A stretch of 45,231 nt of DNA from a virus. Under the pieces are notes generated by a model. The model was given only the letters and a program-made list of their open reading frames with translations. It was not told where the DNA came from and searched no databases. The stretch is from IMG/VR virus record IMGVR_UViG_3300048686_000781, positions 1-45,231 of that record. One strand, 5' to 3'. Made by a program: the position numbers and the translations under genes. Shown here piece by piece: positions 2,953-45,194 of this stretch. Every line of letters begins with the position of its first letter. Within the stretch, counting starts at the first letter, position 1.

Positions 2953-3510
2953 ATGATGTGGCAGATGAGAGTGATGATCATGGGATTGGTATTGGGACTC
3001 AGTGGATGTAGTGCGTTGTCTTCTTCAACGACTCCACCAGAATGGGTTGAGAAGGGATCGGGGGTTCTTTCTAAGAATGATCCTAAGAGTCTGTATGGAG
3101 TGGGAACCGTGACGGGTATTCGGAATGTAGGTCTTGCTTGGGAAACTGCGGAGAATCGCGCTCGGGCAGAACTCGTTCGAACAATTTCAACGTCCATGGG
3201 CTATCTGATGCGTGATTATGCAGCCTCAGTTAGTCAGTTGGAAGGACGAACAGTTGATGAACAGTCTATTGAACGAGGCATTCGTACTTTCTCTTCGATG
3301 ACACTGAATGGAGTTCGGATCTATGATCGTCATATGGATCCAACGACACATAGTTATTCAGTGACCGTTCGGTTGAATCTTGATGAGTTTCAACAGACAC
3401 TTCAGGAGATGAAGCAACTAAATCCAAAAGTTCGTGAGTATATTCAGAAGAATGCAGAAAAGATGTTTGAACGTTTGGATCAAGAAGAAGCGAAGCGAGG
3501 TCAACCATGA
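2953..3510 (+). CDS. LPP20-family-like lipoprotein
   Basis: With the start at 2953 (AAAGGAGT at 2941-2948 just upstream) the 185-aa product begins with a lipoprotein signal: a short basic segment, a hydrophobic core (MIMGLVLGL) and the lipobox L-S-G-C, with Cys19 as the lipidated residue. The mature part (PPEWVEKG, YGVGTVTG, AENRARAELVRTIST, then an amphipathic region and YSVTVRLNLDEF) matches the pattern of LPP20/LPP20-like bacterial envelope lipoproteins. Position +2 is serine, which favours the outer membrane in Gram-negatives. It overlaps the next membrane-protein gene by four bases. A phage-coded envelope lipoprotein could act in superinfection exclusion or lysis; that is inference. Confidence 0.7.
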   Translation: MMWQMRVMIMGLVLGLSGCSALSSSTTPPEWVEKGSGVLSKNDPKSLYGVGTVTGIRNVGLAWETAENRARAELVRTISTSMGYLMRDYAASVSQLEGRTVDEQSIERGIRTFSSMTLNGVRIYDRHMDPTTHSYSVTVRLNLDEFQQTLQEMKQLNPKVREYIQKNAEKMFERLDQEEAKRGQP

Positions 3511-3710
3511 ATGATATCATCATCTATGTGATCGGAATTATTGCAATGATGATTATATTGAGTCCCGTTATCATTTTTCTGTTATATCTTTCTGTGCTGA
3601 TTGCGTCAATGTTAGTTTTATTTTTTATCTATGGTGGGATTGGTGCGCCTTGGCATATTCTAAGAAAGTTGACACATTCCAAGCGATCATCAATTCATTA
3701 TAACTTATAA
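3507..3710 (+). CDS. Small membrane protein, 67 aa
   Basis: About 50 of 67 residues are hydrophobic and form two closely spaced membrane segments (about residues 3-24 and 26-48), followed by a basic C-terminal tail (RKLTHSKRSS). The ATG overlaps the stop of the lipoprotein gene in ATGA, suggesting translational coupling and a shared envelope role. No family is recognised. It is not obviously a holin because it lies far from the SleB-type hydrolase, but that cannot be excluded. Confidence 0.65.
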   Translation: MNDIIIYVIGIIAMMIILSPVIIFLLYLSVLIASMLVLFFIYGGIGAPWHILRKLTHSKRSSIHYNL

Positions 3711-3713
3711 ATA
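3706..3713 (+). promoter_or_regulatory. T4-type late promoter motif TATAAATA
   Basis: An exact TATAAATA overlaps the stop codon of the membrane-protein gene and stands 10 bases before the next ATG. In T4 this octamer alone defines late promoters, with initiation about six bases downstream of it. That would leave a very short leader containing AGGATAG. Confidence 0.4.
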
Positions 3714-3723
3714 AGGATAGTGT

Positions 3724-3978
3724 ATGCCAACCTATACCTTTCGTCATAAAGAGTCGGGTGACGTTCTAGAAACATTTCTCACGATGTCTGCACGTGAAAC
3801 GTTTCTCACGGAACATCCTGAGTATGAACAAGTGATTCTTGAAGCTCCAGCGGTTGGTGATCCTGCTGCACTTGGTTATCAAAAGCCTCCCACCGATTTT
3901 ATGAAGTATGTTCGCGACCCGATCATTGCGCGTAACCGTGGGCGCAAGGCTCGAACACAAGCACCACGGGAATTATAA
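3724..3978 (+). CDS. Conserved T4-like phage protein, 84 aa
   Basis: The protein opens with MPTYTFRHKESGDVLE, a beta-hairpin pattern like the FmdB-type zinc ribbon N-terminus but without its cysteines. It continues with an ExFLxxHPEYEQVI helix region and a P-A-A-L-G-Y-Q-K-P-P segment. Similar short proteins are widespread in aquatic T4-like phages, with no assigned function. The start is supported by AAGGATAG a few bases upstream. The C-terminal tail is strongly basic (ARNRGRKARTQAPREL). Confidence 0.6.
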   Translation: MPTYTFRHKESGDVLETFLTMSARETFLTEHPEYEQVILEAPAVGDPAALGYQKPPTDFMKYVRDPIIARNRGRKARTQAPREL

Positions 3979-16806: not shown

Positions 16807-17631
16807 TTATAGTCCACGAACTTTATTGATAATATTTTGAATCACTCCACCCAATACGCCCGTATCGGTTCGATATGTGTTTCCAGCAAGAGTCTGAGCT
16901 TTTTGCATCTCATTCATCTGAATATCATTGAACTTCTGATCTTCAGGATATTCAATCATATAATCTGATGCTCGTGATTTTGCTTGTTCCATCTCATTCA
17001 TCTGAATATCATTGAACTCTTCATTTTCGGGATATTCAATCATATATTGAGGTTGTGGTAATGAATCGACTGTTGAAAAGACAGGATTTCCGAATTCTAT
17101 AATTTCGTACCGTTCATAGAAGAATGTTACTGAGAGTTTATGTGGTGAATCATCTGACCAAGATGTTGATAATTGATTAATATTCGTTGGAAAAATGTTA
17201 ATCAAATTGAATTGTAATGTTTTGTTTAATCCTTGTTCGTCTCCATCCAACTTGTATTGTGTCACTTTTGCATTACCCATAAACGAGTCGAGATATTCCA
17301 TGTTATTTCGTTCAGGATCAAAGATTCCGTTCATCCAGTATTCAAAAAACATACGAATATGCATATCAGCTGTATCAACAAATGTCATAGTGATATCGGC
17401 ATACATGGTTTGATATGGGGTTTTGTAAATCGGACCAAAAATCTTATTATCAGTGGTCACGATTTGTCGGCCGGGCAATTCTGCGGATTCGCATCTTAAT
17501 GTTAGAATCTCAGGAGTTTTTGTATCAGGCAAAAGAATTGGTGGTAATGAAAAATTGACATCAAAGTGACTGGTTTTCGCAATTCCCCGTTTTTCGATGT
17601 CAGCTAAAAATTGACTAATATTACCTGGCAT
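16807..17631 (-). CDS. 54: gp54-like baseplate tail-tube initiator
   Basis: The 274-aa protein has the tube-protein fold signature of the T4 gp19/gp54 group: HFDVNFSLPP, ILTLRCESAELPGRQI, then PYQTMYADITMTFVDTADM. A further stretch, FEYWMNGIFDPERNNMEYLD, matches tube initiators. As the gene is set among hub genes and gp48 lies just beyond, gp54 is favoured over the major tube protein gp19. The C-terminal quarter contains two copies of a 28-residue unit (YMIEYPE-FNDIQMNEM). The ATG overlaps the upstream gene's stop in TAATG. Confidence 0.7.
   Translation of the reverse strand: MPGNISQFLADIEKRGIAKTSHFDVNFSLPPILLPDTKTPEILTLRCESAELPGRQIVTTDNKIFGPIYKTPYQTMYADITMTFVDTADMHIRMFFEYWMNGIFDPERNNMEYLDSFMGNAKVTQYKLDGDEQGLNKTLQFNLINIFPTNINQLSTSWSDDSPHKLSVTFFYERYEIIEFGNPVFSTVDSLPQPQYMIEYPENEEFNDIQMNEMEQAKSRASDYMIEYPEDQKFNDIQMNEMQKAQTLAGNTYRTDTGVLGGVIQNIINKVRGL
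16906..17046 (-). repeat. 84-base tandem repeat inside gene 54
   Basis: Two copies of a 57-base unit (16906-16962 and 16990-17046) recur with a period of 84 bases, exactly 28 codons. Both encode QMNEM, FNDIQ and YMIEYPE on the minus strand, with a few substitutions. The unit is in frame and lengthens the C-terminal tail of the protein. Confidence 0.85.
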
Positions 17632-18212
17632 TAGATGTTCCTCGCTGATTCGCGTTGGACAAAGCTCGTACTCTTCTTCGCAAACTGTTCATTAGGCAAC
17701 AAACATGCGATATCCCATTCTGCTGCAGGAATCTCTAAAAATCTGGATTCAACCTGGGTATAGAGATACCGTTTGAGGCAGGGTTCGAACTCAGAAATAC
17801 TGGATGCGCCTCGGAGCATATCATAGGAGAGGCGAAATCGAGTTTTTTCATCGTATTGATCGTTGGTTAGATACGCACTGAGCTTGTTCAACAGTCGCAC
17901 ACGGGTTTTGGGAGTCACATAATGCAGATTCAGTCCTAAAAATCCATCAGCATAGCGTTCAATCGGAATGACAAGAGGAAATCGGTCATAATAGGGTAAG
18001 ATATCTTTGAGTTTTGGATCATAGAAGAAGTAATACATGCGACCAATAATCGTCTTGTTGCGTAGATTCTCTTTATCGTTCAATAGAGCTTGCCGAGTTG
18101 GTTTCAGATTCTTAGTTTTCTGTAATAGCCATTGCTGCGCCTGACGAGTGCCAGGAGCGAGGGCTTCTTTGCGGAGAGCCGCTTCAAGTCGCTGAAGAAG
18201 AGTCTGTGCCAT
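17631..18212 (-). CDS. Conserved T4-like virion protein, 193 aa
   Basis: With the start at 18212 the protein begins MAQTLLQRLEAALRKEAL. The core has IIGRMYYFFYDPKLKDILPY, DRFPLVIPIERYADGFLGLN and HYVTPKTRVRLLNKL, a pattern common to structural proteins of aquatic T4-like phages, next to head-completion and hub genes. No precise T4 counterpart is claimed. The longer frame upstream of 18212 overlaps gene 4 and is not needed. An AATAAATA motif stands exactly five bases before this ATG. Confidence 0.7.
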   Translation of the reverse strand: MAQTLLQRLEAALRKEALAPGTRQAQQWLLQKTKNLKPTRQALLNDKENLRNKTIIGRMYYFFYDPKLKDILPYYDRFPLVIPIERYADGFLGLNLHYVTPKTRVRLLNKLSAYLTNDQYDEKTRFRLSYDMLRGASSISEFEPCLKRYLYTQVESRFLEIPAAEWDIACLLPNEQFAKKSTSFVQRESARNI

Positions 18213-18217
18213 AGTAG

Positions 18218-18225
18218 TATTTATT
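18218..18225 (-). promoter_or_regulatory. Late-promoter-like AATAAATA five bases before an ATG (minus strand)
   Basis: On the minus strand AATAAATA is followed by CTACT and then the ATG at 18212. The motif overlaps the stop codon of the gp4 gene. T4-type initiation about six bases downstream would begin the transcript at or next to the start codon. Confidence 0.45.
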
Positions 18226-19132
18226 AGAGCCCAAGTTCGTTTTCGGTGATAATTTTGAATGTCCACCCATGGTCCTGACAGAACTCTTCAGCAGCATGCC
18301 ATTTGGCCTGATTCACCGCATAGGTTTTGGCTTCTTCCAGGAACTTGCGAGTCTGGCGTTTCGGTGCTCGTAACGTCGTCTGTGAGAGCGGTTTGACTTC
18401 CAGAATATAGGTTGTCGAGGACCCATCAGCACGTTTTACCTTCACGACAAAGTCAGGAAAATATCGTCTGGTTCTCTTTGTGGTTGGGTCATAATAAGGA
18501 ATAATCAATTCTTCTGATGACCAATTGACGACATTGTGAGATGCATCTAAAAATCTCATGACCTTATGTTCCCAAGAAGAACGATATATGATATTTGTTA
18601 CATTCCCAGCATATTTTTCAGGATGTTTGGGAATAAACTTTCCGCGATAAAATATAGAACGGCCATTCATACGAATCCTTTCCGTAGTGATTTTAGACAT
18701 ATGATCATAATATTCTTCTGTATGTTTTCTCCCCGTCCATGATGGTGGTGGATGATTTTTGAATCGTTCTAATACTTTATCTGTTCTGGGATATGAGGAT
18801 TTATTTTTTGATCCCTTCGGTCTTCCTTTGTTACTGAGATACTTTTTGCAAGATTCTCTCAATTTGTCTTTTCGTTCAACATTACCATCCCATTGCTTAC
18901 GGGCTGCGTGTTTATGCGCGCATTTTGGGCAATATACTGCATACCCCTTTAATATTCCTCTCCATTTCGTGTGGGTTCCGCACTCGCAAAGATTTTCTCG
19001 TTCTTTGATGTATTGATCATAATAAGACTGAGAATTCGTCTTGTGGATCTTCAAGTGATTTGTAAAGGCTGTATGGTAGGCGAACCCCTCTTTTTGACAT
19101 ATTTTGCAAATCAAGTCAAATTTGGTGTTCAT
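18224..19132 (-). CDS. 4: Zinc-finger/NUMOD3 homing-type module fused to a complete gp4 head-completion protein
   Basis: The 302-aa frame has two parts. Residues 1-154 carry a C2H2-type finger (C9-x2-C12-x13-H26-x3-H30), a second Cys pair set (C49-x-C51, C68-x2-C71), a basic GRPKGSKNK linker and SWTGRKHTEEYYDHMSK, a NUMOD3-like DNA-binding motif of homing endonucleases. Residues 155-302 (148 aa) are a full gp4-like protein (T4 gp4 is 150 aa): KFIPKHPEKY, IIYRSSWEHKVMRFLD, NWSSEELIIPYYDPT, RRYFPDF and YILEVKP, the last two forming a PD-(D/E)XK pair (D227, E245-x-K247). An internal ATG at 18670 with GGAAAGGA upstream could make gp4 alone. The ATG overlaps the stop of the 38-codon gp4 stump as ATGA. 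Confidence 0.8.
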   Translation of the reverse strand: MNTKFDLICKICQKEGFAYHTAFTNHLKIHKTNSQSYYDQYIKERENLCECGTHTKWRGILKGYAVYCPKCAHKHAARKQWDGNVERKDKLRESCKKYLSNKGRPKGSKNKSSYPRTDKVLERFKNHPPPSWTGRKHTEEYYDHMSKITTERIRMNGRSIFYRGKFIPKHPEKYAGNVTNIIYRSSWEHKVMRFLDASHNVVNWSSEELIIPYYDPTTKRTRRYFPDFVVKVKRADGSSTTYILEVKPLSQTTLRAPKRQTRKFLEEAKTYAVNQAKWHAAEEFCQDHGWTFKIITENELGL

Positions 19133-19245
19133 TGCATGACACGCTGTTCCCAAGACGACCGATAGATGATATTGTTGGGATTGCCCTTATACTTCTGGGG
19201 ATGTTTGGGAACAAATCGTCCATGATAGGTTATATAAATACTCAT
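19129..19245 (-). pseudogene. 4: Truncated original 5' end of gene 4
   Basis: Thirty-eight codons, MSIYITYHGRFVPKHPQKYK then GNPNNIIYRSSWEQRVMQ, followed by TGA. This is the expected N-terminus of gp4 and is clearly homologous to residues 164-191 of the fusion protein downstream, where the same segment reads KFIPKHPEKY and IIYRSSWEHKVM. The gene is broken just after the RVM/KVM codons. It keeps its own AATAAATA motif and start, and its stop overlaps the homing-type gene's start, so it may survive as a leader peptide that couples translation. Confidence 0.8.
19233..19240 (+). promoter_or_regulatory. Late promoter motif TATAAATA for gene 48
   Basis: An exact T4 late consensus stands 29 bases before the gp48 ATG. 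That leaves room for a leader carrying the ribosome site GGGGGA. It lies inside the coding region of the gp4 stump on the other strand and is the start of the plus-strand baseplate block. Confidence 0.65.
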
Positions 19246-19250
19246 GCTTC

Positions 19251-19258
19251 TATTTATT
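19251..19258 (-). promoter_or_regulatory. Late-promoter-like AATAAATA before the gp4 stump (minus strand)
   Basis: AATAAATA on the minus strand is followed by GAAGC and the ATG at 19245. The five-base spacing is the same as at 18218 and 25344. It faces away from the gene 48 promoter, only ten bases off. Confidence 0.5.
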
Positions 19259-19269
19259 TTGGGGGATTC

Positions 19270-20364
19270 ATGGCCAATAAATTTTCTGAAGTTTTTCAAT
19301 TTGGTAGGAAAGTTATCGGATCTCCTGCTGGCCGTCGAGTAGTTAAATATACAGCAGTTGGTGCTGCAGCAGTAACAGGATTTATAGCAGGTTCTGCAAC
19401 AGCCGTTGCAAAAGATGAAACAGATCCCAATAATCAATCCACGGGTCCTCTTGCGCCATTAAGTAAATCGTTATTTCATTATGGAGAATGGCGGTATCCC
19501 AGCGATCTTGGGGGAGACCGCACGAGATATCCCTATTATATGAAGTTCAATATTAATATTTCCGAAAAGAGTCAATACCAAAGTCAATTTGGTATACAAA
19601 CACCAGAAGAATCCTCAAAATTTTCTCAAAAAGCATCAACCACAGGTCTTCAGGGTGTCGTTCGTCGAAAGACTCGAAGAACGAATCAAGCTATTCTCAT
19701 ATATATGCCCGACACAATGCAGTGGGGGTTCAATCATCAATGGGAAGGCGAATCACTCACACAAGCCACTGGGATCAAGGCGGGGGCACTAGGGGCAGGA
19801 ATTGTTGGTGCATTCAAGGGTCTAACAGGTACAACGGCTCAAGAGAGGGAAGCGGGAGCTGAGGCATTCAAATCAGCACTCGTCACTGGTTTGTCTCAAA
19901 CAGTAGGACAATCGTTAGGAATGAGTATCAGCGAAGGATTGGCGCAGGCAGCAATTGGAAAAGCTGTCAATCCTAACGAGGAATTATTATATAAAGGTCC
20001 AGGATTCCGGGAATTCCAATTTGAGTTTATGTTTGCTCCACGAAATGCATCAGATGCCAAGACTGCATTAGACATCATTCAAGCCTTCAAATTTCACGCC
20101 GCTCCTGAACTTCCTGGTGGCGATGGCGGTCGTTACTTTATTCCCCCATCGGATTTTGATATTGAGTTCTATAATAATAATGACCTTTTGTGGCAGATTG
20201 GGTCGATTGGACGATGTGTGCTACAGAGTATTACCGTCGATTATGGGGCCGCTGGTCAATTTGCTGCGTTTGCGGATGGGTACCCTAGTCATATTCGGAT
20301 GCAGTTACAATTCAAGGAAATCGATATTGTCACCAAACGACAAATTGCTGAGTCAGGATTCTAA
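19270..20364 (+). CDS. 48: gp48-like baseplate tail-tube cap
   Basis: Starting at 19270 (GGGGGA upstream) the protein is 365 aa, against 364 in T4 gp48. After an N-terminal hydrophobic segment (VGAAAVTGFIAGSATAVA), it shows YMKFNINISEKSQY, ILIYMPDTMQWGFNHQWEGESL, a helical Ala/Gly insert and FREFQFEFMFAPRNASDAKT, the T4 tail-cap pattern, ending VTKRQIAESGF. Gp48 sits on the hub and starts the tube with gp54. The frame upstream of 19270 belongs to the opposite-strand gp4 region and is not used. The stop overlaps the gp53 start in TAATG. Confidence 0.85.
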   Translation: MANKFSEVFQFGRKVIGSPAGRRVVKYTAVGAAAVTGFIAGSATAVAKDETDPNNQSTGPLAPLSKSLFHYGEWRYPSDLGGDRTRYPYYMKFNINISEKSQYQSQFGIQTPEESSKFSQKASTTGLQGVVRRKTRRTNQAILIYMPDTMQWGFNHQWEGESLTQATGIKAGALGAGIVGAFKGLTGTTAQEREAGAEAFKSALVTGLSQTVGQSLGMSISEGLAQAAIGKAVNPNEELLYKGPGFREFQFEFMFAPRNASDAKTALDIIQAFKFHAAPELPGGDGGRYFIPPSDFDIEFYNNNDLLWQIGSIGRCVLQSITVDYGAAGQFAAFADGYPSHIRMQLQFKEIDIVTKRQIAESGF

Positions 20365-20978
20365 TGGCCAAATACTTCGAATATTTCCCCTATATCACTT
20401 ACTCGCTGAATGCATCGGATCTTGCGGCTAATGATATTGTTACGAATATCTTCCGACGAGTCGGATTTCTGGACACGATTAAAAATAATGCCCAGTTATT
20501 TTACCCATACACAATTGCGGAAGGAGATTCTCCAGAAATCATTGCGCATAAGTTGTATGGGGACGTTGATCTATATTGGATTGTGACGTTGTTCAACGAT
20601 ATTCTTGATCCAGTGCTTGATTGGCCGCGAAACTATTTGCAATTTGATCAGTATATCAAAGACACCTATGGATCAGTCGCTATTGCAAAATCTACAACGC
20701 AGATGTATACGAAGATCGTGAGTAAAACCAATAGTGAAGGATTCGAGACGCAGGAAACGTATGAAATTGATCTGGATACCTATAATTCTCTCACTTCGGT
20801 TGTTCCTGAATCCTATGTATTTGACAGTGGCGCCACTGTCACTGTTACAACCACACGACAGATCATCTCAGTCTATGACTATGAACAGAGTCTCAATGAA
20901 GCGAAGCGAAGTATTCGTTTGTTGAAGATTGAATATCTTTCGCTTGTCAAAGGACAGATGGAATCATTGAGCATATAA
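20364..20978 (+). CDS. 53: gp53-like baseplate wedge protein
   Basis: The 204-aa protein (T4 gp53 is 196 aa) opens MAKYFEYFPYITYSL and contains FLDTIKNNAQLFYPYTIAEG, DSPEIIAHKLYGDVDLYWIV and LFNDILDPVLDWP, the characteristic LysM-like gp53 block, then a C-terminal helix YEQSLNEAKRSIRLLKIEY. Gp53 clamps adjacent wedges around the hub. Its start overlaps the gp48 stop, as expected for genes expressed together late. Confidence 0.9.
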   Translation: MAKYFEYFPYITYSLNASDLAANDIVTNIFRRVGFLDTIKNNAQLFYPYTIAEGDSPEIIAHKLYGDVDLYWIVTLFNDILDPVLDWPRNYLQFDQYIKDTYGSVAIAKSTTQMYTKIVSKTNSEGFETQETYEIDLDTYNSLTSVVPESYVFDSGATVTVTTTRQIISVYDYEQSLNEAKRSIRLLKIEYLSLVKGQMESLSI

Positions 20979-39137: not shown

Positions 39138-40337
39138 GTGGGATATCTCGGAAGTACCTATTCAACATTTGATCCAACCAGAACAATTGGCGCACCGCGA
39201 GATGCTGATCGCTTCTCAGGCAATGGGTCAACAACTGCGTTTACTCTGACTCGTTCAGTTGATTCTCCAACTGACATTGAAGTCTTTGTGGGAAATGTGC
39301 GTCAGGAACCACTGACTTCCTATAGTGTGTCGGGAACCACTCTAACATTTACAGGAGCTCCTGGATCGGGCACGAATAACATCTATGTAATCTATCGTGC
39401 ATTCAACAGCAACATTACGGTCACACTGCCCGATGGCGCAGTGTCCTCAGCTAAACTGGCTAATAACATTCGGTTGTTTACGGTTGATAACTACACTGCC
39501 AATGGTTCAGCCACGAGCTTTGCGTTGTCGGAGACGCCAGCCAGTGCCAATACGTTGATGGTGGCAGTGAACGGAATTCTGCAGAGTGCGCCGAATAACT
39601 ATACGGTGTCGGGTTCCACGATTACCTTTACCAGTGCGCCAGCAGTCAATGCGAATGTGACTATTCGCCATTTGGGATTCCGAACCACCACAACGATTAC
39701 AGCCTTAGCAGCGAATAGCACCATTACGCAGCCTGTTCTGAGTGGTAGCGTGACAGGAACCTATACTTTGGCTGGAACACCGACGATTAGTTCGCCGACA
39801 CTGAGTGGCACAGTTGCGGGCACGTATACACTAGGTGGAACACCGACGATCCGAGTCGCTTCAGGCACAGCGGGAGCACCTTCGTTAGCGAATACTAATG
39901 ATACTTTGACAGGAATCTTCTTCCCAGCTGCGAATACGATTGCGTTTTCCACAGCAAGCACCGAGCGTATGCGTCTCGACTCCTCTGGTAATTTGCAATT
40001 CAACTCTGGCTATGGCTCTGCTGCTACTGCTTATGGTTGTCGTGCTTGGGTGAACTTCAACGGTACGGGTACTGTGGCTATTCGTGCGAGTGGTAATGTG
40101 TCTTCTATTACTGATAATGGAACAGGTGAATATACAGTTAACTTCACCAACGCAATGCCTGATGCAAATTATTCGGCAATAGTAACAGGTGGTCCCGATA
40201 ATAATAGTGTCGGAGGCGTTTTTGGCGAAGCCGCTTGTTATAACACCATAAGTACTTCAGCAGTTCGTATCGCCTTTATTCACCACGCAGGTTCTAAAGT
40301 TGATGACCCTTATTGCTTTGTAACAATCTTCCGCTAA
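39138..40337 (+). CDS. Tail fibre protein, 399 aa (GTG start)
   Basis: The GTG start at 39138 has GAGGT upstream, and the paralogue at 42933 also begins GTG with MGYLG. The N-terminal ~180 residues hold two copies of a fibre domain (FSGNGSTTAFTLTRS to GTNNIYVIY, and YTANGSATSFALSETP to VTIRHLGF). A shaft with TPTISSPTLSGT follows, then a tip STERMRLDSSGNLQFNSGYG and CRAWVNFNGTGTVAIRASGN that recurs in the fibre at 44287. It is likely a receptor-binding or side fibre. The next small gene is a companion that is also duplicated. Confidence 0.8.
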   Translation: MGYLGSTYSTFDPTRTIGAPRDADRFSGNGSTTAFTLTRSVDSPTDIEVFVGNVRQEPLTSYSVSGTTLTFTGAPGSGTNNIYVIYRAFNSNITVTLPDGAVSSAKLANNIRLFTVDNYTANGSATSFALSETPASANTLMVAVNGILQSAPNNYTVSGSTITFTSAPAVNANVTIRHLGFRTTTTITALAANSTITQPVLSGSVTGTYTLAGTPTISSPTLSGTVAGTYTLGGTPTIRVASGTAGAPSLANTNDTLTGIFFPAANTIAFSTASTERMRLDSSGNLQFNSGYGSAATAYGCRAWVNFNGTGTVAIRASGNVSSITDNGTGEYTVNFTNAMPDANYSAIVTGGPDNNSVGGVFGEAACYNTISTSAVRIAFIHHAGSKVDDPYCFVTIFR

Positions 40338-40346
40338 AGGACAATT

Positions 40347-40592
40347 ATGAATTCACGAATCATTTATCCAACTGACGATGGAGTGTCCGTCATTGTTCCA
40401 GCACCTGAGTGTGGTTTAACCATTGAGGAAATTGCCGCCAAGGATGTGCCAGTAGGCAAGCCCTATAAAATCGTCGATGTGGCAGACATTCCAACAGACC
40501 GTACATTTCGTGCAGCATGGGAAACAGAGATTACTGATCCAGATGGTCACGGTATCGGCCACGAGGCATGGTTTGCTGCACAAGAGTCATAA
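40347..40592 (+). CDS. Small fibre-associated protein, 81 aa (copy 1)
   Basis: Begins MNSRIIYPTDDGVSVIVPAP and continues CGLTIEEIAAKDVPVGKPYK, IVDVADIPTDRTFRAAWETE, ending HGIGHEAWFAAQES. A second copy at 44946 is almost identical and follows another fibre with the same tip. The constant pairing with the fibre tip suggests an assembly chaperone or tip-binding protein; that is inference. The ribosome site AAAGGA lies upstream. Confidence 0.7.
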   Translation: MNSRIIYPTDDGVSVIVPAPECGLTIEEIAAKDVPVGKPYKIVDVADIPTDRTFRAAWETEITDPDGHGIGHEAWFAAQES

Positions 40593-44286: not shown

Positions 44287-44922
44287 ATGGCAGGAACTGT
44301 TGCAGTTAGTCAGATTCAGTTTGATAATGGTGCGGGAAATACCGTCACCATGATGGCTCCATCCTCCAATCAAACGTACACCTTTACGTTACCATCAGCC
44401 AATACGGGCGCACTGTTGGTCGCGAATAATATCGTGCAACTGGCTGCGGGATCCGCAGGGGGACCATCCGTGACAGCGAATACGGATACGGCGAGTGGAT
44501 TGTTCTTTCCTGCTGCGTCAACAGTGGCATTCTCCACTGCGAGTACCGAGCGTATGCGTCTCGACTCCTCTGGTAATTTGCAATTCAACTCAGGATACGG
44601 CTCTGTTGCTACAGCCTACGGTTGCCGTGCTTGGGTCAATTTCAATGGCACGGGTACGGTAGCTATTCGATCATCTGGGAATATCACTTCAATTACTGAT
44701 AACGGTGGAACGGGATCATATCGAGTCAATATCACGAATGCACTGGTCGATGCCAATTATGGCGTCGTTGGAACCTCCACGCTAGGCGATGCCGTCAATG
44801 CCGGCGATACTGGACGTCCTATCTCCATTCGCTCTCTGACGACGAGTAACTGTGAAGTTCGTATCACAGATGGTGGTACAGGTGTAGATTGTTTGTATGT
44901 CAGCGTGGTAATTTTTCGTTAA
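44287..44922 (+). CDS. Tail fibre protein, 211 aa, tip shared with the 39138 fibre
   Basis: Begins MAGTVAVSQIQFDNGAGNTV then MMAPSSNQTYTFTLPSANTG, an attachment part that differs from the 39138 fibre. From about residue 76 it carries AFSTASTERMRLDSSGNLQF and CRAWVNFNGTGTVAIRSSGN, almost the same as that fibre's tip, with a diverged end (DANYGVVGTSTLGDAVNAGD). The DNA of the shared start is nearly identical, indicating recent exchange. AAGGA lies upstream of the ATG. Confidence 0.78.
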   Translation: MAGTVAVSQIQFDNGAGNTVTMMAPSSNQTYTFTLPSANTGALLVANNIVQLAAGSAGGPSVTANTDTASGLFFPAASTVAFSTASTERMRLDSSGNLQFNSGYGSVATAYGCRAWVNFNGTGTVAIRSSGNITSITDNGGTGSYRVNITNALVDANYGVVGTSTLGDAVNAGDTGRPISIRSLTTSNCEVRITDGGTGVDCLYVSVVIFR

Positions 44923-44945: not shown

Positions 44946-45194
44946 ATGAATTCACGAATCATTTATCAAAACGACGAAGGTGGTGTGGACATAATCATTC
45001 CAGCCAAAGAGTGCGGTCTAACCATTGAAGAGATCGCCGCCAAGGATGTTCCTGCAGGCAAGCCCTATAAAATCGTCGATGTGGCAGACATTCCCTCAGA
45101 CCGCACATTTCGTGCAGCATGGGAAACAGAGATTACTGATCCAGATGGTCACGGTATCGGCCACGAGGCATGGTTTGCTGCACAAGAGTCATAA
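44946..45194 (+). CDS. Small fibre-associated protein, 82 aa (copy 2)
   Basis: A second copy of the 81-aa gene at 40347: MNSRIIYQNDEGGVDIIIPA then CGLTIEEIAAKDVPAGKPYK, IVDVADIPSDRTFRAAWETE, ending HGIGHEAWFAAQES. The 5' part differs at several positions while the last 29 codons are identical at the DNA level. It again follows a fibre with the CRAWVNFNGTG tip, so fibre tip and small gene travel as a unit. Confidence 0.72.
   Translation: MNSRIIYQNDEGGVDIIIPAKECGLTIEEIAAKDVPAGKPYKIVDVADIPSDRTFRAAWETEITDPDGHGIGHEAWFAAQES

Follow-up and report, generated by a model that had tools for sequence, protein, structure and literature searches.

A zinc-finger module fused to a mosaic gp4 in a split gene 4 of a T4-like phage: a candidate homing element with no nuclease of its own

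The arrangement of gene 4 described here raises the question of how a T4-like phage came to carry the beginning of this gene twice, with a zinc-binding module between the two copies, and of what the resulting fusion protein might do. Benler et al. (2020, as reported in PMC7824862) described gp4 of T4-like phages as a non-specific DNase that morphogenesis requires, and a PD-(D/E)XK fold was predicted for it (PMC1189080). Splitting of genes by homing endonucleases and co-conversion of the flanking DNA are established in T4-like phages (PMC2988022). The window, i.e. the whole stretch of 45,231 nucleotides that was analysed (IMG/VR record IMGVR_UViG_3300048686_000781), is a fragment of a T4-like phage in which gp2, a tail tube protein, and T4-type baseplate and tail proteins surround the site. 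Elsewhere in the window, two nearly identical ORFs of 81-82 amino acids (40347-40592 and 44946-45194) each lie behind a similar tail-fibre-like gene (39138-40337; 44287-44922), suggesting that a fibre module was duplicated.

17631..18212, minus strand: gp2, the DNA end protector, the downstream gene (context; phrog_429, E 3.8e-50)
19129..19245, minus strand: stump, native 5' end of gp4, probably a displaced remnant of the target gene (phrog_218; DNA of the relatives L101-L104)
19231..19233, minus strand: position of the ancestral gp4 start codon (by alignment, ATG in L101-L104 and ATA here)

On the minus strand, gene 4 opens with a stump of 38 codons (19245-19129) closed by TGA, the product of which (MSIYITYHGRFVPKHPQKYKGNPNNIIYRSSWEQRVMQ, then the stop) matches the "head closure" family phrog_218 with an E value of 1.3e-11, the N-terminus of phrog_218 (gp4) being the sole region matched. 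The fusion ORF of 302 codons (19132-18224, minus strand) starts at an ATG inside CAATGA, where the last A of the stump codon CAA joins the TG of the TGA in an ATGA overlap. A complete gp4 occupies its residues 161-302; in the profile search, residues 161-300 fall on positions 3-141 of the 148 in phrog_218 (E 4.4e-56), which amounts to a full-length gp4, and residues 199-297 match the Pfam TnsA-like N domain (E 3e-23). The two gp4 copies form an ungapped direct repeat of 103 nt with 71% identity, 578 nt apart, and at the protein level the stump and the second copy are 69% identical over 32 columns; by this repeat, both gp4 starts are true homologues. An earlier note, made from the sequence of the window, had claimed a gp4 stump ending in TGA, a module opening in an ATGA overlap, a full gp4 in frame behind it, and two copies that differ clearly in DNA while keeping shared blocks, and our findings agree with it on each of these points. 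It had also called the second copy recoded. The copies do differ, but 16 of the 22 codons for residues common to both are identical, so that silent change was overstated and "diverged" is the safer word.

The present stump frame starts at an ATG (19245) that lies 12 nt upstream of the ancestral start, and no Shine-Dalgarno sequence was found at this ATG. Loss of the ancestral start codon, together with the missing ribosome site, weakens the idea of translational coupling; both would fit a fragment whose only use, if it has any, lies in recombination. The first stump codons overlap a T4 late-promoter-like sequence, TATAAATA on the plus strand (TATTTATA on the minus strand, about 19234-19241), which faces the divergent tail-tube-cap gene. 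A group I or group II intron was rejected, since a search of 17600-20400 against Rfam gave no match at E<=1.

A scan based on gp2 yielded four relatives, L101-L104 (gp2 79% identical), all with the same gp4 sequence. Their gp4 is intact and ordinary, and its start coincides with that of the stump. The stump and the DNA upstream of it are 76% identical to this intact gp4; the homology ends at window position 19134 and resumes at 18466, inside the second copy, at the RYFPDF codons. What lies between these positions is the module and a diverged gp4 5' half. The empty state of the window site is seen only in relatives with 73-76% DNA identity.

18449..18652, minus strand: diverged gp4 5' half, fusion residues 161-228, in place of the native segment (RFLD..RYFPDF 50% identical to L101; GC 35.5%)
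18224..18448, minus strand: native gp4 3' half, fusion residues 229-302 and stop (81% amino acid identity to L101; DNA homology)

Amino acid identity to L101 is 79% in the stump, 73% in the N part of copy 2, 47-50% in the middle (RFLD..RYFPDF) and 81-82% in the 3' part. Among 87 gp4s, L101 comes 1st in the comparison of the 3' part and 60th in that of the middle segment, which resembles L101 no more than it does other relatives; the N part of copy 2 is second-closest to L101 (of 87). In gp4 pairs with a 3' identity of 76-86% (n=126), the middle is never below 61% identical (median, 79%), and a 31-point drop between 5' and 3' identity occurs in none of 3,741 gp4 pairs. The GC content is 35.5% in the diverged 5' half and 48% in the 3' half. 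In a tree of the 5' half, an AU test did not reject a clade of window and L101 (p 0.53), with 68 columns only. Taken together, the mosaic identities, the pair survey and the GC contrast indicate that the native 5' end was left behind as the stump and that the working gene bears another 5' half, for which a foreign origin is suggested. A displaced fragment of the target and a complete target that is a chimera of old and new sequence, as in end-replacing elements of the WHO type, are present here as the stump and the mosaic gp4. The proposals of an invasion inside gp4 and of a replaced 5' part, also made in the earlier note, thus gain support from the intact gp4 of L101-L104, from DNA homology flanking the insert on both sides, and from the homology boundaries and mosaic identities.

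The same module was also looked for in other gene 4 loci, as had been recommended, and neither a stump nor a fused module turned up in any of about 195 loci (three scans; some contigs counted twice). Nor does gp4 in any of these loci have such an N-terminal extension, or the stump occur as a separate conserved gene, either of which would be fatal to the idea of a fractured gene 4. The stump/module arrangement was absent among the matches listed from about 2,500 matching phage records, and no fused or fractured gp4 was found in the genome contigs searched. In a module-weighted query of the phage collection, no record reached 80% coverage; an earlier query gave one record at a coverage of at least 80%, which lies outside the matches listed. 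In Synechococcus phages MA01, MA10, ME01 and MC09 (H1-H4) and in L039, gp4 homology seemed to reach into the module, but this was dismissed as chance; as read, MA01 and L039 have stop codons throughout the extension frame, and their annotated gp4 is ordinary. Klebsiella phage CPRSA was dismissed as a second case, as it has only an ordinary gp4 open frame. Homing genes next to gp4 in Straboviridae (Cronobacter phage Pet-CM3-4, Erwinia phage COW86c, Providencia phage PSTRCR_121 and Morganella phage Rgz1) were likewise set aside, being of the HNH type and unrelated, with gp4 unsplit. HNH/NUMOD3 homing genes overlap the start of an intact gp4 in L133 (1421-2074) and L135 (1361-2032). Together with these genes, a second HNH gene that PSTRCR_121 carries after gp2 gives the region of gp4 and gp2 in Straboviridae the look of a hot spot for homing.

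18665..19132, minus strand: predicted DNA-binding module, fusion residues 1-156 (alignment with zinc-finger parts of free-standing phage endonucleases)
19043..19108, minus strand: C2H2-type zinc finger, residues 9-30 (C9, C12, H26, H30; invariant alignment columns)
18920..18988, minus strand: four-cysteine zinc ribbon, residues 49-71 (C49, C51, C68, C71; ligand alignment; weak Pfam Zn_ribbon match, E 0.005)
18671..18814, minus strand: basic linker and helix, residues 107-154 (GRPKGSKNK ... SWTGRKHTEEYYDHMSKI; NUMOD3-like by eye only)

The module is 22-38% identical to the zinc-finger parts of free-standing phage endonucleases. It is not decayed, as it retains 156 open codons and all eight zinc ligands. 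Of the previous description as a zinc-finger/NUMOD3 module, the zinc-finger part holds, all ligands being present, but NUMOD3 has no Pfam match in the module even at E<=10, and the resemblance of SWTGRKHTEEYYDHMSKI to it was judged by eye only. The structure model of the module is of low confidence (pLDDT about 60 outside the first finger), including the basic region. Searches of the module with Pfam and PHROGs found no nuclease domain; rather than forming a separate gene with its own nuclease domain, as a free-standing homing gene does, it is fused to gp4. Matches to the module in plasmids and in Arthrobacter, Enterobacter and Xanthomonas phages were dismissed as chance-level, and a wider module profile (A2) offered no conserved stretch that could serve to find other loci.

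18392..18571, minus strand: PD-(D/E)XK catalytic residues E188, D227, E245 and K247 (conserved across gp4 and homing-type proteins)
18668..18680, minus strand: candidate internal start for free gp4, AAGGA (18680-18676) and ATG (18670-18668), yielding MNGRSIFYRGKF... (duplex energy)

In an alignment of gp4 and homing-type proteins, E188, D227 and E245 are invariant and K247 is near-invariant. The gp4 part of the structure model has a pLDDT mostly above 90 over residues 171-300, and the best Foldseek matches of the fusion model are TnsA structures (1f1z/1t0f; E 4e-4 to 1.5e-3); a sequence search of the PDB gave no match. The Pfam result for the fusion shows a TnsA-like nuclease and contains no intein, LAGLIDADG or Vsr domain. 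As had been claimed, the PD...E-x-K of gp4 is the only nuclease motif by Pfam, PHROGs and structure comparison. Judged by its sequence, the fusion of a gp4 DNase and a putative DNA-binding module has all the parts of a site-specific nuclease. Conservation and gene context, with gp2 adjoining, suggest that this gp4 still serves in head completion, and free gp4 may be made from the internal ATG at 18670. The AAGGA site there (duplex energy -5.4) is typical for the phage (gene-start median -5.2), but background ATGs, with a median of -2.65, are fairly often as strong.

The nearest kin of the module are the N-terminal parts of free-standing phage endonucleases, which fall into two groups. In one (L084-L100 and L132), the protein mostly ends in a Vsr/DUF559-like nuclease. 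In the other (Vibrio phage pv27 (WNO23722), L138, L155, L139, L140 and L151; phrog_15137/15427), it ends in a gp4-like nuclease with the motifs RS-x-(Y/W)E, PDF and E-(V/I)-K. Proteins of this second group match phrog_218 (pv27, E 3.5e-7; L138, E 1.4e-10), and their nuclease matches ordinary gp4s without any fusion in a profile comparison (96.9%, E 1.8e-10). An HHalign comparison of the fusion with the profile of these ZnF/gp4-like endonucleases is colinear from the finger to the nuclease (253 columns, 99.1%, E 5.4e-19). The L155 endonuclease (2998-3912) is inserted precisely where a conserved phage gene has its start codon, and the corresponding site in L242 (2300-2560) is empty, with flanks 85-88% identical to those of L155 on both sides; L243-L246 are also empty. 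By this comparison of occupied and empty sites, the ZnF/gp4-like endonucleases appear to be mobile. The suggestion in the earlier note that gp4 could serve as the cutting domain is thereby backed by mobile endonucleases with the same module and a catalytic domain homologous to gp4. Upstream of the same gene, L279 has a frameshifted copy of the L155-type endonuclease. A gp41-like helicase gene in L157 (2141-5236; also in L158 and L159) appears by eye to be split by a zinc-finger and Vsr-like endonuclease, with an apparent intein start in the downstream helicase half, an arrangement like that of a Dassa-type fractured gene. In L098 (2513-3424), the module is almost the same as in L092, but NUMOD1-like repeats take the place of the Vsr-like nuclease behind it, from which C-terminal parts appear to have been swapped within the zinc-finger family.

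We propose that gene 4 was invaded by a homing-type element, with codon 37 of today's stump as the last one before the insertion. Two parts would make up this element, the zinc-finger/zinc-ribbon module and a diverged gp4 5' half that runs on in frame into the 3' half of the resident gp4, and the native 5' end would have stayed behind as the stump. The nuclease of gp4 itself is the most likely cutting domain, aimed at uninterrupted gp4 genes, because the 302-residue product shares its layout with the mobile ZnF/gp4-like endonucleases. The order of events that we infer is as follows. In a mixed infection, the fusion would cut the uninterrupted gp4 of a co-infecting phage near the insertion point (after ...RVM); repair would then copy the module and the diverged 5' half, for which the stump and the 3' half of gp4 would supply the homology arms, and the recipient's old 5' end would become a new stump. 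The diverged 5' half would leave gp4 both functional and uncut. The insertion with replacement of the 5' end is very probable, and the explanation as a whole, with gp4 as the cutter, seems to us somewhat on the probable side. A narrower claim is offered tentatively, as falling a little short of probable: the element has no nuclease of its own and brings nothing but a module for DNA binding and a 5' half immune to cleavage, making the invaded gp4, an essential packaging nuclease, its homing endonuclease. Target, immunity and cutting domain might then be one and the same gene. The strongest independent support for such a function comes by analogy, in that the same two-part protein appears to have been built elsewhere as a mobile gene.

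Several facts count against this explanation. It relies on one metagenomic contig, with no second instance in the about 195 loci or the phage collection, and the activity of the module, with its low identity to homologues and its low-confidence model, is predicted only. A single contig might also point to an assembly chimera or a sequencing artefact; however, the copies are only 71% identical, no repeat is long enough for misassembly, native flanks lie on either side of the insert, and both frames are open with the fusion in frame, which makes an artefact scarcely credible. Further facts that count against our explanation, i.e. that the 5'-half tree leaves room for a clade of window and L101, that the N part of copy 2 is second-closest to L101, and that most silent sites in shared residues are the same in both copies, are those that favor a local duplication of the gp4 5' end, with fast divergence of the second copy and insertion of the module there, without import or homing. 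On the first two of these, fast divergence of a local duplicate is a possible source of the 5' half. Such a history nonetheless has to account for an L101 that ranks 60th of 87 for the middle but 1st for the 3' part, and for the GC contrast between the two halves, and we consider it improbable.

The fusion might also be the by-product of a dead or dying homing gene, in which a zinc-finger endonuclease invaded gene 4 and lost its own nuclease by deletion or by recombination into gp4; free gp4 would be made from the ATG at 18670, and the module would be idle. The plausible internal start, the lost start codon of the stump, and the existence of module relatives with separate Vsr/DUF559 or gp4-like nuclease domains are consistent with this. 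Decay does not, however, readily explain why all zinc ligands and an open frame of 156 codons were retained, why the joint lies in frame at the first codons of a gp4 that is preserved complete, or why the remaining protein still has the full layout of the mobile family; moreover, the mosaic 5' half requires a separate explanation. On these grounds a dead homing gene appears unlikely, if not to the same degree as a virion-related role of the module, which is quite improbable. In the latter case, the module would be a new DNA-binding arm that steers the gp4 nuclease in packaging or head completion, and the stump would be accidental. An in-frame fusion, and a DNase activity needed for morphogenesis (Benler et al. 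2020, as quoted in PMC7824862), would suit such an arm, but it is absent from all other gp4s (about 195), the relatives of the module are mobile endonucleases, and both the stump and the mosaic are left unexplained.

If the proposed homing element is real, then end-replacing homing, as in the WHO elements of yeast, occurs in phages too and can act on a gene's 5' end. It would also be a natural case of a non-specific nuclease made site-specific through fused zinc-binding modules, and would point to a likely source for the gp4-like nuclease domains seen in some phage endonucleases. How a structural gene gives rise to a homing endonuclease would become directly testable. Loss of the nuclease would then mean loss of an essential gene, a simple escape from decay for a selfish element.

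Among known systems, the WHO elements of Torulaspora and Lachancea yeasts show that replacing one end of an essential gene is a workable way of homing (Coughlan et al. 2020, PMC7282813). The likeness is one of arrangement: one end of the gene is swapped for a resistant version, the old end persists as a displaced recombination arm, and the target is a mosaic chimera. Zinc fingers occur in the protein in both. WHO replaces the 3' end of FBA1 and has a separate, intein-type nuclease gene. In the window it is the 5' end that was exchanged, the target carries the module as a fused part, and the sole nuclease is the one that the target itself encodes, with a TnsA-like and not an intein-derived domain in Pfam. 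Fractured genes with EDxHD/Vsr-type homing endonucleases (Dassa et al. 2009, as cited in PMC12350094) and the nrdA gene split by mobE in Aeh1 (PMC2988022) likewise have a homing gene inside an essential T4-like gene, with related zinc modules in L084-L100, L132 and L157-L159, and in T4 the start codon of mobE overlaps an upstream stop (UAAUGA), as that of the fusion does here. In those cases, the pieces are complementary halves of one protein and the endonuclease between them has its own nuclease domain, whereas the downstream piece in the window is an entire gp4 in which the stump segment recurs, with no Vsr domain. The HNH genes at gp4 of Pet-CM3-4, COW86c, PSTRCR_121 and Rgz1 also overlap the 5' end or start of gp4, but they encode an unrelated nuclease in a separate frame, and gp4 is neither split nor duplicated. 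F-CphI of cyanophage S-PM2 is a homing endonuclease with the domain of a T4 DNA-processing nuclease (Endo VII, gp49; PMC6083498); it is a separate gene, while here the domain is that of a working gp4 and the putative target is gp4 itself. Closest of all in protein layout are the ZnF/gp4-like endonucleases (pv27, L138, L155 and L151), with the same domain order, a homologous zinc module, nuclease and catalytic residues, and apparent mobility at gene 5' ends. They are separate genes beside intact targets and lack the N-terminus of gp4, whereas in the window the nuclease is a real gp4 and the target is split.
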